In this document: one piece after another, positions 24,364 through 32,906 of the stretch
Position numbering within the stretch: position 1 is the first letter of the stretch
Layout: the number at the start of each line of letters is the position of its first letter
DNA from: Bacteroidota bacterium
GTDB lineage: Bacteria; Bacteroidota; Ignavibacteria; SZUA-365
DNA length: 33,634 nt
NCBI GenBank assembly: GCA_003246455.1
Contig: QKAF01000041.1
Location: 1 to 33,634 of the forward strand
Direction: 5' to 3'
Notes under the pieces: model-generated
Told to the model about the DNA's origin: nothing
What the model saw: only the letters and a program-made list of their open reading frames with translations
Databases searched by the model: none
Program-made: the position numbers and the translations under genes

Positions 24364-24432
24364 TACTTTGGTCCTGTCGTCTGGTTGAACGGCTCGATCT
24401 GCAAGATACGAAGAAAAGGCCAGCCGACCTCC

Positions 24433-24464
24433 ATTGACTTCCTCCCCGGGATACAATATGTTTA
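24433..24464 (+). promoter_or_regulatory. Bacteroidota-type promoter of the YCF48-repeat gene
   Basis: ATTG (24433-24436), a 20-nt spacer and TATGTTTA (24457-24464) match the architecture seen before sucD and the TPR operon. It lies about 100 nt before the ATG at 24563. Confidence 0.5.
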
Positions 24465-24562
24465 CGATGCCTATGTCTTTTATCACAGGTATCCGGGAAC
24501 ATGCCGGGACCTGCGGATCAGGGCACGAATTGGCGTGGGGCACGCAGAGCACAGGAGGTACG

Positions 24563-25525
24563 ATGACGCAGCGCAGCTTGGTAATCGCTGGTATTTCCCT
24601 CTTCATCTTCTGTACTGCGCCGGTCGCAGCGCAGCAGCCCGGATGGAAGTGGCAGCATCCGCTTCCGCAGGGCAACACGCTCAACGATATCGCCTTCGTC
24701 GGAGGCGGCACCTGGTTCGCCGTCGGCGACTGCGGGACGATACTGCGGTCGTCGGATGACGGTGCGACATGGGACGCGAAGCATCTTCCGCGAACGGGCA
24801 GCCTCACCGCGGTGGATATGATCGATGCCGCGATCGGTTTCGCGGTCGGCGACGCGGGCAGCATTCTGAAAACCACCGACAGCGGAAATCACTGGTCCGA
24901 GATCGCGAATTACGGCTACGGCCTGTACGGCGTCAGTTTCGGCAGCGAAGATGCTGGCATCGCGGTCGGAATCAACGGGTATGTCTTCCGCACATCGGAC
25001 GCCGGAGCGACATGGGCGTTCACGACCACCGAGGTGAATTACACGCTCCGTGACGCCGCGTTTTCCGATCCCCATCACGCAACCGTGGTCGGGGACGGCG
25101 GCATCATCCTGCGCAGCGATGACGGCGGCGTGACCTGGACGAGCGTGTACAGCGGCGTAAGTACCGGGCTCTCCGCGATTCATTTCTCCGATGCCATGAA
25201 CGGCCTCATCGTCGGTGCATCGGGCGTGATTCTCCGTTCCGCTGACGGCGGAGCGACCTGGACGATGCTGACGAGCGGCATGACCACGCGTCGGCGTCAC
25301 GACCGGGAGAATTCTGCGAACGTCAGACGGAGGACAATCGTGGTACTCCACGCCGGCCACAACCAGCCAGTCGCTCCGGGCCCTCGCATCGAGTCCATCC
25401 GGACGGATGATTGCGGTCGGGGAACGCGGCTGCATGGCTGCAAGTTCGAATGCGGGTTTCGACTGGACAGAGTTCACCATCCCGCCAGCGCTTCATCTCC
25501 AGGCCGTCGCGTTTGCGAATCGTAG
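24563..25525 (+). pseudogene. YCF48/BNR-repeat T9SS protein, 5' part (frame broken near 25280)
   Basis: This is the N-terminal part of a secreted repeat protein. A perfect AGGAGGT (24553-24559) precedes the ATG, and a signal peptide (MTQRSLVIAGISLFIFCTAPVAAQ) follows. Five beta-propeller-type repeats of 40-41 residues follow; each ends in a 'G.ILR(T/S)xDxGxxW' motif. After 'TWTMLTSG' near 25280 the reading becomes Arg/His-rich and unlike the repeats, while the repeat pattern continues in another frame ('GRILRTSDGGQSW' from 25305). The distance between the two repeat motifs is 82 nt where about 123 is expected, so about 41 (or 38) bases are missing. The protein is therefore interrupted. Residues after about 25285 in this frame are not a natural sequence. 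Confidence 0.85.
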
Positions 25526-26648
25526 CACGGGCTGCGCAACCGGCTTCGAGATAGGAATGTGGCAACATGGGGCAATGCTCAGGACCTCCGACGGAGGACA
25601 ATCGTGGCAGAGAATTGCCATCGACTCCATCCCTGCGCTGCCGGACATCTGCATGCTCGAGGACGGGACTGGATTTGCAGTCGGAGGCATCAGGACAATC
25701 CTCCGAACCTCCGACGCGGGGGAACACTGGGAGTCTCTTGACTTCGGTGGATCGGGATACTTGAATGCTGTCACTTTCGTGGACCCCGCGTATGGCTTCA
25801 TTGCCTCTGACAGCGGATTCGTCCTCCGTACCACTGACCGGGGAGACCATTGGACCCGGCAGTATACCGGCAGCGACATCCGACTGTGGGGAATTTCCTT
25901 CACGGATCGCAGCAACGGCACTGTCGTCGGCAATGGAGGCTACGCCCTTCGCACGACAGACGGTGGCGCCAGTTGGGCGGCACAGACAGTCAACGCTACC
26001 GAAGCCCTGATATCCGTCTGTTTCACGGACTCCCTGAACGGAATGCTTGTCGGGGATCGCGGGACGATGTACCGCACGACGGACGCGGGCGCGCACTGGC
26101 GTACGATCGCGAGCGGCATCGCCGAAAAACTGATGAAAGTCCGCTTCACCGATCGGGAACACGGCATCGCCGTCGGATATTCCGGGACTGTGCTGCGCAC
26201 CACCGACGGCGGCGAGAGCTGGGCGGTGCAGTTCGCCGCAACAACGGAGACGCTGTTCGGCGTCGCGTGCCTCGACTCCCTTTCCGCGACCGCCGTGGGA
26301 TTGAACGGTACCATCATCCGTACGGAAGCCGGGAGTGTCACCTCGGCCCGCTGCTCAGAGCCGCTTCCCTCCTTCCTCCAGCTCGGGCAGAACTATCCCA
26401 ATCCCTCCACCGCTTCGACCACGATCCCCTTCTCGCTGTCCCGATCCGGACACGTTTCACTGTCCGTCTACAACATACTTGGCCGCCGGGTCGCCGTGCT
26501 CGTCGACGAACAGCGGAGCGCCGGTGCGCACGCGGTACAGTTGGAGACGAACGCGCTTCCCCCGGGAGTGTACTTCTCCGTTCTCCACGGGGGAGAATTC
26601 GCCGTGACGAAAAAACTGCTGGTCCTGCATTCCGGAAGTGTGCGATAA
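25407..26648 (+). pseudogene. YCF48/BNR-repeat T9SS protein, 3' part with T9SS sorting domain
   Basis: This is the downstream part of the same broken gene, in the next frame. Sense coding extends back to about 25284. It contains eight or nine further repeats ('AMLRTSDGGQSW', 'TILRTSDAGEHW', 'FVLRTTDRGDHW', 'YALRTTDGGASW', 'TMYRTTDAGAHW', 'TVLRTTDGGESW'). It ends in a classic type A T9SS C-terminal domain ('LGQNYPNPSTASTTIPFSL', 'LSVYNILGRRVAVLVDEQ', 'GVYFSVLHGGEFAVTKKLLV'). The intact ancestor would be exported across the outer membrane and anchored or released by T9SS. There is no convincing ribosome site for an independent start. Codon use and repeat quality are intact, which suggests a recent break or an assembly collapse. 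Confidence 0.85.
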
Positions 26649-27416: not shown

Positions 27417-30338
27417 TTATTTCACGAGTACCATCGTCCCGTAGGCCTGATGCGTTCCGACGCGGAGGACATACAGGTAGATACCGGGGGTATTGCCTGA
27501 CGGCATCCACTGAACGGCGTGCGACCCGGGATTCTGCGTTTCGTCGACAAGAACGGACGCAACCTGGCCGAGCGCATTGTACACCGTGACGCGCACGGGC
27601 GCGGCGCGGTGCAGGTCGTAGCGTATCGTCGTTGCGGGGTGGAACGGGTTCGGGTAATTCTGGAAGAGCGTGAATTCACCCGGAACAGACTGCAGTCGCT
27701 GCACCGAATTGACGTCGAGGCCCGTGCCTGTAACAAGCACCGTATCGGGCGAACTCGCCGCGTCGCTTTCGATGATCAGGGCTCCGGAGAGGCTGCCGAC
27801 CACGCTGGGTGTGAAGCGGATCGTATTGGCAAAGGATCCGCCGCCCGCCACCTCGAACTGGGACTGGAGCGCGGCAAAATCCGTGTTGGTCGAAGTGATC
27901 GACGACACCGTCAGCTTCAGGGTTCCAGGGTTGCTGATCGTCAGCACGAGATCCTCCTTGCTGCCGATTTCAACGGATCCGAAGGTGAGCGGTTCCGGCG
28001 CGAACGCGATCGCCGGATCCGCGACACCGGTGCCGTGCACCGTGATCGTGTTCGGCGACGACTGCGCGTTGCTGACCATCGTGAAGCTCGCGCTGACCTG
28101 TCCCGCTGCCTGCGGTGTGAAGCGCAGCGTGAAGGTTGCGGAGGACCCCGGGGCGATACCGGCGATCGGCGTCTCGAGGGTGAACTGCGAATCGCCCGAG
28201 GTGAACGACGAGATCCAGAGCGTGTCGTTCCCGGTATTCGTGACAGTCAGAGTGGTGTCCCTGTAGGACCCGACAGGTACGGCGCCGAAGGAAATATCCG
28301 ACAGATCGATCGTCAGCGTTACCTCAGGAGTGCCTGCCCCGTTGAGCGAGACAACCGTGGGCGAGGTCGAGGCATTGCTGATGATGGTCAGGTTCGCCGA
28401 CACCGAACCGACGGCGGACGGGGTGAACCGCACAGTATCGTCGAAGGATTCACCGGGCAGAAGATCTTTCGTCAGCTCATCCACCTTGAACGCCAGATTG
28501 CTCGTCGTGATGCTCGTAATCCGGAGCGTGTCGTTTCCGAGGTTCGAGATATTGAGAGCCAGCGGCTTGCTCGATCCGGTTTTCACGTTCCCGAAATAGA
28601 GCGTGGTTTTGTCGGTGCGGATCGATGCCGACCCGGTTCCCGTTCCGCTGACAAGCACCGTGTCGGGTGCGAAAACGGAATTGCTCTCGAAGACGACGAA
28701 AGCATTGAGCACTTCCTTGGAGGTCGGCTGGAACTTCAGCGTCGCCGTGGCGCTGCCCGAGGGGTCGAGCGTCATGTTGTCGACAGTCACGGTAAAGCGT
28801 GCATCGCTCGGCGTGACCGAAGCGATCGTCACGGGAGCGCCGCCGGTGTTCGTAAGAGTAACGTTCTTTGTCAGCGAATACCCGATTCCCACCGAACCGA
28901 AGGCCACGGATTTCGTGGAGAATGACAGGATCGCCGGGCTGGTCGGGAAGGATCCGTCAGCGAGAATCCGGGACGCGTAGATTTCCACGTTCGAAAACGA
29001 GGGACGGTAATCCTCCCACGTGAGAATCGCGCCGCCCTGACCGTCAGGAATCATGCGCGGGAACTGCTGGATTTTGTCCGCGGTGCATATCGCGATCCCG
29101 GGGTCGGTCCACTGCAGTGTACCGCTGTTGGAAATCCGCTGCCCGTAGATATCGGTCTGCGTCGCGCCCTTGGTCTTATCCTCGAAGGCGACGATCAGAC
29201 CGCCGGCGCCGTCCGTGGAGACGGTCGGCGACACCTGGTCACCAGTTCGATTGGACACCGACACACCGTCCGCAGGATATGTAATGGCGCCCGTGCTGTC
29301 GATGATCTGTGCGAAAACGCGTTTTTTTCCGGCAGAGCGTCCGTCTTCCCATACGAGGCCCATCACGCCGGGCCGGATCCGTGCCATCTGCGGACTCGCC
29401 TGACCGCCGCTGGTGGACGCCGGCCGGAAATTGGCCGCCTGGGTTCCGTCACGCTTCAGAATAACAAACTGCATGTTGGCAATCGACCCCGCCCAGTCTG
29501 CGAACGTGAGGAACGCGTGTCCCGCACCGTCCGAGAACAGCATCGGGGAATCCTGGTCACCGCTTCCGGTGGCGACCCCGATTCCTTTGGGGTCCCACTG
29601 CACCGCACCGTTCGCGTCGAGGCGCTGGACATACACGTCGTATTCAGGACGCGGGTAATAGGCGTACGCGATGTACGCGCCGCCGTTGCCGTCGCTGGCG
29701 ATACTCGGCGCATTCGAAAAACGCAGCGAGCCCGAGACCAGGACCTGCGAACCCCACATCAGGTTGCCGCCGGCGTCGATGCGCTGGGCGTAGATCTTGC
29801 TGATCGGCGGGAAGCCGCCGGTGTTGGCGTTCCATGTCACAATCGCGCCATGCTGGCCATCGCCGGTCACCTTGGGATCGGCCTGGTTGCTCGTATCGAA
29901 GGTCAGCGCGATGCCGTCGGGCGTCCAGAGAACTGCGCCGGAGGAATCGATGCGCTGCGCGTAAATATCATTATTGCCGTCCCTTGTATCCGTCCACACG
30001 ATGATCGCGCCCCCGGCGTCATCGGAAACGATATCCGGCTGAATCTGAGAATTCGGTGCGCCGCACACGAGGTTTCCGTTGACCGTCCACCGCACGAAAC
30101 CTGCATTGTCGATGCGCTGGGCATAAATGTCGAAGGAGTTCGATGACCCCCGTTCGTCATACCAGCAGATGATCGCACCATCCTTCCCGTCGCTGATAAT
30201 CCGGGGCCCGACCTGGTTGTTGCCGGCCTGGCAGATGGCATTGTTCATTCCCGGACTGGAACTCCACTGCGCCTGCGCGCTCATGAACGGGACGAATAAC
30301 AACATCAAGACAAAAAGTCGTATCAACCGTGACATCAT
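27417..30338 (-). CDS. T9SS-exported protein with four choice-of-anchor-D (HYDIN-like) domains
   Basis: A 973-residue secreted protein. The signal peptide is followed at about residues 25-465 by propeller-like repeats with 'D.DGGAIIVWTDTRDGNNDI', 'YAQRIDSSGAVLWT' and 'ISDGKDGAIICWYDERGSS' patterns, about eight in number. Four Ig-like choice-of-anchor-D domains of about 100 residues follow (about 468-873), each with 'F G.V..G......L.I.N.G...L.I.S' and 'F.P...G...A.L.I.SNA...P..V.L.GTG'. The last ~90 residues form a T9SS type A sorting domain ('LFQNYPNPFHPATTIRYDL', 'VYNALGQVASVLVDETQN', 'GIYLYVLRVGTHQAYGTMVL'). A clear AGGAGC precedes the first of two adjacent ATGs. The likely role is cell-surface or released extracellular protein; the ligand is unknown. 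A strong terminator follows. Confidence 0.9.
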   Translation of the reverse strand: MMSRLIRLFVLMLLFVPFMSAQAQWSSSPGMNNAICQAGNNQVGPRIISDGKDGAIICWYDERGSSNSFDIYAQRIDNAGFVRWTVNGNLVCGAPNSQIQPDIVSDDAGGAIIVWTDTRDGNNDIYAQRIDSSGAVLWTPDGIALTFDTSNQADPKVTGDGQHGAIVTWNANTGGFPPISKIYAQRIDAGGNLMWGSQVLVSGSLRFSNAPSIASDGNGGAYIAYAYYPRPEYDVYVQRLDANGAVQWDPKGIGVATGSGDQDSPMLFSDGAGHAFLTFADWAGSIANMQFVILKRDGTQAANFRPASTSGGQASPQMARIRPGVMGLVWEDGRSAGKKRVFAQIIDSTGAITYPADGVSVSNRTGDQVSPTVSTDGAGGLIVAFEDKTKGATQTDIYGQRISNSGTLQWTDPGIAICTADKIQQFPRMIPDGQGGAILTWEDYRPSFSNVEIYASRILADGSFPTSPAILSFSTKSVAFGSVGIGYSLTKNVTLTNTGGAPVTIASVTPSDARFTVTVDNMTLDPSGSATATLKFQPTSKEVLNAFVVFESNSVFAPDTVLVSGTGTGSASIRTDKTTLYFGNVKTGSSKPLALNISNLGNDTLRITSITTSNLAFKVDELTKDLLPGESFDDTVRFTPSAVGSVSANLTIISNASTSPTVVSLNGAGTPEVTLTIDLSDISFGAVPVGSYRDTTLTVTNTGNDTLWISSFTSGDSQFTLETPIAGIAPGSSATFTLRFTPQAAGQVSASFTMVSNAQSSPNTITVHGTGVADPAIAFAPEPLTFGSVEIGSKEDLVLTISNPGTLKLTVSSITSTNTDFAALQSQFEVAGGGSFANTIRFTPSVVGSLSGALIIESDAASSPDTVLVTGTGLDVNSVQRLQSVPGEFTLFQNYPNPFHPATTIRYDLHRAAPVRVTVYNALGQVASVLVDETQNPGSHAVQWMPSGNTPGIYLYVLRVGTHQAYGTMVLVK

Positions 30339-30620: not shown

Positions 30621-32906
30621 ATGCTTCACCCCGTGAATCCTTCCGCGCCTCGACGGGAACTCCGCTCCGTGTTCCATGCGAACCGCCCATCGAACAGACG
30701 CCTTCCGCATGCGCGCGCCGGCGCCAGGTCCCTCCGGTTCTTCATTATCGTCGCGGCAATTGGCTGCACGTGCTTCGCGCAGAACGGCGGCGGACTCCCG
30801 CGTGATCATCGAACCCGGAGCGCGCTGCCCGAATGGCAGCGGCTGCCGGGGCCGGACGGCGGATCGGTCCGCGAAATGTACCGGACGCCGTGGGGCAGCT
30901 GGTATGCAGGAAGCGAGGGCGGCGTGTACCGCTCCGACGACGACGGCAGAACCTGGCAGAGTCTGGCGATGCTCCCGATCCGCTTCAACAGCATGCGGGC
31001 GCTGGTGCCGGTTTCCCCGGCGGTCCTCGCCGTGTGCACGGACCGCGGGAGCTTCCGGTCGAGCGACGGCGGCGCGTCGTGGTTCCCGATTCCGGCGGCG
31101 TTCACCCACCTGGCGCTCGATTCGTCCGGCGCGCTCTGCGGGCTTCTCGGCAACGCCGTATACGTCAGTCCCGACAGCGGCGTGTCGTGGAACGGGCCGA
31201 CGCTTCCCGCCGCGGGCGTGTTCGCATCGATCGCGTACAGCATGTACGCGCCGGCGCGGGGAACCATGCTGGCGATCAGCCGCGCCACCCTGTACCGCAG
31301 TACGGACGCCGGGCAGCACTGGGATTCGCTCGCCGTTCCGTTCGCCTCGCGCACGGGGTATGACGGCGGCACCCTGAGCGGCGACGGCGCAAACCTGTAT
31401 ATGACGGTTCTCCCCAGCACTTCGAACCTGATCTGGATTTACGCGAGCAGCGATACCGGCCGCAGCTGGAGAGAAATCGCGCCCCCGGTGCTGCAGTACT
31501 CCATGATCCCGGCTTTCGATGCCCGCCACGGCCGTATCGGCGTGATTGAAAGGCAGACCGCGGACTGCCGTGCGCGACTGCATATGAGCACAGACGACGG
31601 CCAGAGCTGGTCGGACGACCCGCTGACGTTCTCCGCGGCGATGTTCGCCCATATCCGGCCCGACGGAGACATCTTCGCAAGTACCTGGGACGGTGTGCAC
31701 CGTGTGGACGGCCTGTCGGGGAGTACGGCGGATGCCGACCTGGGACACGCGACATCGACCGTCCGAGCCCTCGCAACCGTGTCGGATTCGGTCCTGGTCG
31801 CAATGGGTACTTCCAGGGTGTACCGGAGTACCGATGCCGGGGCGACGTGGACGGTAACGCTGGCAACCCGGGACTGCTACATGCTCTCGGCGCGATTCAT
31901 CAAACTTGGCAGCGGCACGCTGTTCGCATCAGGCGTGGTTGCGTCGCTGGAGCGCGTATTTTATCGCAGCGAAGATGGCGGACAGCGTTGGATGCCGACG
32001 GCGTCCCCTCGGTCGGACCGTTTCCCGGATGCCATCGCGACGGACGGCGGATCACGAATACTTGCCGCGTACGGCAATGGCGAACTGTGGATAAGCAGTG
32101 ACGGCGGCACCCGGTGGGACCGCCGCACGACGCCGTTTCCCGGTACTACCGTAGCGGCCGCAGCGATTGACAGCGGCGGACGCATATTCGTCTGCCAGGA
32201 GAACGCGCTCCGTTACAGCGACGACGGACTCGTCTGGATGACGCCCACGGGTACGCTGCCCGCCATGATCTTTCCGCGCGACCTGTTCACGGACAATAAA
32301 GGCTCGGTGGTCCTCGGGGCATCCTACGACGGCGTCTTTCGATCCTCGGATCGCGGAGAGCACTGGGAGGCCGTGAACACGCGCCTGACACCGACAGGGA
32401 TCATGCGCGTCACGCATGACGGACATGGCACACTTTTCGCCACGGACGGCGAATACACATATCGTCTCCTCCCCGGCGAGACGCGGTGGGAGCTGATCGC
32501 CCGTCGACCGATTCCCGTTGCCGTGCGCTCGTTCGAATGCGCCGCATCCGGACGCCTGTTCGCTGGGACGCAGAACTTCGGCGTCTGGCAGCTCGATCCC
32601 CCCCCTCCCGATACCGATTCGTCTGACGACCTCGTCACCGCGGCTCATGAATTCGTCCTTCTCCCGGGCTACCCACAGCCCGCTGCGGGGTCCGCGGCCC
32701 TCCCCTTTGAAATTGATCGGCCCGCGACGGTCACACTCGTCATCCACGACCTTCTCGGCAGGCAGGTGCATACCGACACGCGGTCCTGTCCTGCCCCGGG
32801 CAGATATTCCTTCACCTGGGACGGTGCGGGCGTGGCAGCCGGCATGTACCTCTGCACCGTCAGCGACGGAAGCCGCCTCGCCCGCGGGCGCCTGCTTCGG
32901 ATGTGA
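30621..32906 (+). CDS. Secreted Asp-box (sialidase/BNR-like) propeller protein with degenerate T9SS tail
   Basis: A 761-residue exported protein. About eleven Asp-box motifs of the form SxDxGxxW are visible ('RSDDDGRTW', 'RSSDGGASW', 'RSTDAGQHW', 'SSDTGRSW', 'STDDGQSW', 'RSTDAGATW', 'RSEDGGQRW', 'SSDGGTRW', 'YSDDGLVW', 'RSSDRGEHW' and one more). This predicts one or two beta-propellers. These motifs alone do not show sialidase activity; no catalytic Tyr/Glu/Arg set was identified. The C-terminal domain ('LLPGYPQPAAGSAALPFEI', 'TLVIHDLLGRQVHTDTRS', 'GMYLCTVSDGSRLARGRLLR') is T9SS-like but has YPQP in place of YPNP. From the ATG at 30621 the n-region is about 37 residues long before the hydrophobic core; a GTG at 30669 may be the true start. 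The next gene starts six bases after the stop. Confidence 0.82.
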   Translation: MLHPVNPSAPRRELRSVFHANRPSNRRLPHARAGARSLRFFIIVAAIGCTCFAQNGGGLPRDHRTRSALPEWQRLPGPDGGSVREMYRTPWGSWYAGSEGGVYRSDDDGRTWQSLAMLPIRFNSMRALVPVSPAVLAVCTDRGSFRSSDGGASWFPIPAAFTHLALDSSGALCGLLGNAVYVSPDSGVSWNGPTLPAAGVFASIAYSMYAPARGTMLAISRATLYRSTDAGQHWDSLAVPFASRTGYDGGTLSGDGANLYMTVLPSTSNLIWIYASSDTGRSWREIAPPVLQYSMIPAFDARHGRIGVIERQTADCRARLHMSTDDGQSWSDDPLTFSAAMFAHIRPDGDIFASTWDGVHRVDGLSGSTADADLGHATSTVRALATVSDSVLVAMGTSRVYRSTDAGATWTVTLATRDCYMLSARFIKLGSGTLFASGVVASLERVFYRSEDGGQRWMPTASPRSDRFPDAIATDGGSRILAAYGNGELWISSDGGTRWDRRTTPFPGTTVAAAAIDSGGRIFVCQENALRYSDDGLVWMTPTGTLPAMIFPRDLFTDNKGSVVLGASYDGVFRSSDRGEHWEAVNTRLTPTGIMRVTHDGHGTLFATDGEYTYRLLPGETRWELIARRPIPVAVRSFECAASGRLFAGTQNFGVWQLDPPPPDTDSSDDLVTAAHEFVLLPGYPQPAAGSAALPFEIDRPATVTLVIHDLLGRQVHTDTRSCPAPGRYSFTWDGAGVAAGMYLCTVSDGSRLARGRLLRM

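Follow-up and report, generated by a model that had tools for sequence, protein, structure and literature searches.

A T9SS-type YCF48 propeller gene split between two reading frames, probably by a net deletion of about 41 nucleotides

Layout of the broken gene

The window, by which we mean the whole stretch of DNA analysed here, is an entire contig (C119) of 33,634 bases from a 4.1-Mb draft genome in 165 contigs. It contains a gene of the YCF48 repeat family that lies in two pieces read in different frames. The first piece opens with the ATG at 24563, which starts frame A (position mod 3 = 2), and its N-terminus resembles a signal peptide, as judged by eye only. Likeness to the family extends to 25282; past about 25283 all of it is gone, and frame A continues as chance read-through to a stop at 25525. 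The second piece is without a signal peptide and has its earliest ATG at 25407. The features discussed below are these:

24563..25282, plus strand: gene part 1 in frame A, 240 codons to the break, with a signal-peptide-like N-terminus, five Asp-box motifs and a PF14870 match (E = 1.9e-24)
25262..25316, plus strand: the break, 55 nt from the Trp codon of motif 5 to the first codon of motif 6, as compared with the 96 that the corresponding gene of the related genome G003 leads one to expect
25284..26648, plus strand: gene part 2 in the other frame (mod 3 = 0), 454 codons, with nine Asp-box motifs and matches to PF14870 (E = 4.6e-31) and PF18962 (E = 3.4e-10)
25305..25776, plus strand: a stretch of atypical synonymous codon usage (change-point permutation p = 0.02), its left edge near the break
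26394..26624, plus strand: T9SS type A C-terminal sorting domain (Por_Secre_tail), in the second frame only, recognized by PF18962, by TIGR04183 and as a beta-sandwich in the structural model

The Asp-box motifs of frame A lie at 24746, 24869, 24989, 25112 and 25235, and those of the second frame at 25317, 25440, 25581, 25704, 25827, 25950, 26073 and 26196, followed by a ninth that is degenerate (RTEAGSVTS), so that the gene has 5 + 9 = 14 motifs. Another propeller gene stands 4 kb downstream, at 30621-32906; it is an intact secreted gene of the BNR/sortilin-like kind (Sortilin-Vps10, F510_1955-like) with a FlgD-like C-terminus, and between the two, on the minus strand at 27417-30338, is a choice-of-anchor D T9SS protein.

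Family, domains and predicted fold

The original prediction of a T9SS YCF48-repeat gene is borne out by profile searches, in which PF14870 (PSII_BNR, YCF48) scores 86.9 and 108.6 bits in the two halves with a cut-off of 27, while the tail in the second frame reaches 40.5 bits for PF18962 (cut-off 27) and 39.8 for TIGR04183 (cut-off 23). Neither half belongs to the equivalog of the Ycf48 photosystem II assembly factor, since their PRK13684 scores of 96.9 and 120.6 bits stay under the cut-off of 326. As for the features expected of a T9SS type A cargo protein, the sorting domain is present and the N-terminus appears by eye to be signal-like, but the two are in different frames.

The predicted structure of the second half (pLDDT 80) has structures of Ycf48 as its best match (E about 1e-13) and consists of a propeller followed by a beta-sandwich tail; as a model, it confirms the fold assigned to this half from its profile matches. 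The model is compatible with more than one way of closing the blades and more than one number of blades per propeller (an eight-bladed designed protein fits as well), since the fragment comprises one complete propeller and a portion of the other. Judged solely by the number of motifs, the 14 blades would probably form two seven-bladed propellers, and the open homologs described below are likewise predicted to be secreted proteins with 14 blades.

The family is large in this organism. As many as 69 stretches of its own genome match the first half of the gene, and none of the 18 further YCF48 ORFs found there has such a break; tandem YCF48 pairs that had been flagged turned out to be complete genes next to each other. 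Two YCF48 paralogs, L133:2768-4180 (G000:C148) and L142:2224-3621 (G000:C104), have GC3 values of 0.63 and 0.53 where the mean is about 0.78, a codon usage that suggests either acquisition from elsewhere or mis-binned contigs.

Spacing of the motifs and size of the loss

The regular spacing of the blades gives a measure of what is missing. Motifs follow one another in the window gene at steps of 120-123 nt, with one step of 141, and only across the break (25235 to 25317) is the step 82 nt. The difference, 123 - 82 = 41 nt, is 2 mod 3 and fits the change of frame. Our recount of the motifs thus agrees with the original prediction in its coordinates and in its spacing of 82 nt where about 120-123 is expected, and also in its dismissal of a one-base slip: a single-base slip cannot yield a spacing of 82 nt, and therefore fails as an explanation.

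How unusual such a step is can be seen from a survey of 40 YCF48 ORFs from the same genome and three genus-mates, encompassing 344 motif-to-motif steps. These group at 40-45 residues and multiples thereof, and a step of about 27 residues occurs in 0 of the 344. Ten are shorter than 38 residues, one of them being 37, while the others seem to be surplus regex hits within ordinary blades (for example 17+24 and 32+9), a reading that rests on their sums and not on single inspection of each case. Between motifs 5 and 6, the gene of G003 has a step of 41 residues and those of G005 and G008 one of 43; set against the 82 nt of the window gene, it follows that 41 nt are missing by comparison with the first and 47 by comparison with the other two, both being 2 mod 3. 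The net loss of about 41 nt proposed originally is therefore upheld by the frame arithmetic and by the steps of the relatives, with a fair range widened to 38-47 nt, always 2 mod 3. A scan of codon usage, blind to the motifs, places the frame switch at about 25285-25327, and the junction would lie at about 25280-25300, its exact point not being fixable. In more general terms, blade spacing can distinguish a deletion from a base-calling slip without a close relative.

The slot in related genomes

A near DNA copy of the gene is absent from the 60 relatives covered by a family-wide DNA search, and a scan of 84,980 species genomes returned only distant relatives, of about 32% identity over long matches. 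The surroundings of the gene are nevertheless recognizable in G003, a genome of the same genus, which shares the large upstream gene (87% identity over aligned codons) and the gene on the minus strand (93%). In matching orientation, the slot of G003 is occupied by one uninterrupted frame of 714 residues, which encodes 14 motifs along with a T9SS tail. Close to the shared minus-strand gene, G005 has an open frame of 736 codons and G008 one of 734 codons, each with 14 motifs, the latter carrying one in-frame TGA. This stop, at L193:3671-3673 (G008:C4, minus strand), takes the place of a Trp codon of G005; apart from it the two genes share 76% identity, and dN/dS is about 0.2 on either side. In G002, no propeller gene is present between the minus-strand gene and a cytochrome P460 gene.

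The two-frame layout is thus not conserved, and the finding in relatives that would have overturned the original prediction is not seen: G003 and G005 have single open frames, with steps of 41 and 43 residues where the window gene has its gap, and G008 also differs. How far these genes correspond to that of the window is a matter of degree, for the propeller proteins of the window and G003 are only 35-38% identical while their neighbours are 87-93% identical. The genes of the slot are homologs of equal build, and at most candidate vertical orthologs. When the second half is aligned with the gene of G003, a register two blades off scores about equally (610 against 605) but has four times the gaps; we dropped it, because the 14-motif register needs few gaps and matches the long step of 47/48 residues. 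In the comparison of window 24419-26648 with G003:C81 (L202), DNA similarity of 83% breaks off sharply at 24419, immediately ahead of the propeller gene. Gene replacement or very fast change would seem to have taken place in the slot, which also looks expendable, as judged from the lone stop of G008 and from G002, which is without a propeller gene there.

Origin of the break

What could have removed half a blade from an otherwise well-ordered gene? The original prediction named an assembly collapse of a repeat gene among its options, which gains no support here. No exact repeat of the window gene is longer than 18 bp, and the one of that length has a spacing of 264 nt. A periodicity of 41 nt is missing from this gene and from 13 related ORFs, where identical stretches at spacings of 35-47 measure 4-9 bp and those at 38-47 nt do not exceed 9 bp. 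A collapse in which the assembler or the polymerase confused adjacent blades was also rejected on account of its size, since it would remove about 123 nt, in frame.

Phase variation, another of the original options, fares no better, as there is neither a slippage-prone repeat at the break nor a donor cassette in the genome. Long open stretches in both frames, in a family that forms a large set of secreted proteins, might evoke some regulated or programmed arrangement, either phase variation or ribosomal frameshifting by which the two parts would be joined. However, homopolymers of at least five bases are absent from the 400 nt on either side of the break, the gene has neither tandem nor inverted repeats, and the break itself has no simple repeat; frameshifting would leave the missing half blade unrestored, and the layout is not that of G003, G005 or G008. 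We regard arrangements of this sort as highly improbable. With collapse and phase variation unsupported, what is left is either an illegitimate deletion of the ordinary kind or the joining of two different sequences.

Codon usage bears upon the latter. The original prediction described clean codon structure in both halves; in the second half it is weak from about 25305 to 25776. The left edge of this atypical stretch falls within 25199-25536 (at 90%), and the codon-usage step at the break is 0.33, compared with a largest value of 0.28 inside 13 paralogs. An edge so near the break hints at a mosaic joint: the resident sequence at about 25305-25776 may have been replaced by that of a diverged allele or paralog, with about 41 nt lost at a faulty left joint. 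The step larger than in any of the paralogs and the divergence of the slot genes, far greater than that of their neighbours, are consistent with this scenario, but a donor was not found in the genome itself, nor anything closely matching the piece in 60 relatives; moreover, p is only 0.02, the edge is placed no better than the interval just given, and codon usage also varies along the length of the G003 gene. We hold such a recombination joint to be rather unlikely. The same applies to a broader proposition, which we offer as speculative: that the slot by the conserved minus-strand gene is a site of turnover, where secreted propeller genes are refilled, diversified, broken and emptied next to neighbours that remain 87-93% identical, and that a recombination joint gone wrong produced the break in the window, which would show this turnover in progress.

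Genuine recombination and chimeric assembly would leave the same picture here. Hence the shift in codon usage near the break can equally be read as technical, the contig having joined two alleles (through a chimera of strains or a misassembly at this place) or omitted about 41 bases of a gene that is intact in the organism. The source is a draft in 165 contigs, and draft assemblies often contain spurious pseudogenes of the frameshift type, most of all where coverage is low (PMC11017572). Against a technical origin, the two halves keep register, their 14 motifs and long step of 47/48 residues matching the slot gene of G003, while a wrong join would find no repeat longer than 18 bp in the gene to promote it and the genome offers no near-identical second place for the junction. 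We take a technical break to be a possibility of some weight, without favouring it.

The explanation that we prefer, and consider fairly probable, is that a 14-blade T9SS gene of the sequenced population was thrown out of frame and inactivated by a net loss of about 41 nt, located between the Asp-box motifs of its fifth and sixth blades. The frame changes, half a blade is missing, and the same slot elsewhere in the family holds genes of the same build; all this is observed directly. Weighing against the deletion are the low identity of the slot genes, the lack of a near copy in the genomes searched, the change in codon usage near the break, which fits a join of two sequences, and the draft state of the source, in which such breaks may be technical. 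On the deletion reading, the lesion would be biological, and the intact gene would have encoded a secreted protein with 14 YCF48-type blades and a T9SS tail. Translation from 24563 would now produce a propeller fragment deprived of the sorting tail and hence not exported by the T9SS, while the second half, having no signal peptide, would not be exported either. The gene is very probably inactivated. Given the many paralogs in the genome, its loss should be tolerated, and the event is plausibly recent because 454 codons stay open.

Comparison with known systems

The window gene resembles the YCF48/HCF136 beta-propeller family (PF14870, PRK13684; PDB 2xbg, 5oj5) in its Asp-box blades of about 41 residues, in profile and in fold. 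It differs from Ycf48, which has seven blades, in its 14 motifs, its T9SS tail and the lack of any link to photosystem II, its best score of 121 bits being far from the equivalog cut-off of 326. With T9SS type A secreted proteins (TIGR04183, PF18962) it shares a sorting domain above both cut-offs, like several intact paralogs, but its tail is out of frame with the N-terminal export signal. The gene also has a parallel in bacterial frameshift pseudogenes, be they real or technical (PMC11017572), its only lesion being a small out-of-frame deletion, in a family rich in paralogs. The finding is in this respect an ordinary one, a single broken member of a large set of secreted repeat proteins, which points to a slot where genes for secreted propellers may turn over fast; from ordinary frameshift pseudogenes the window gene differs only in the possible link of its break with a codon-usage joint.
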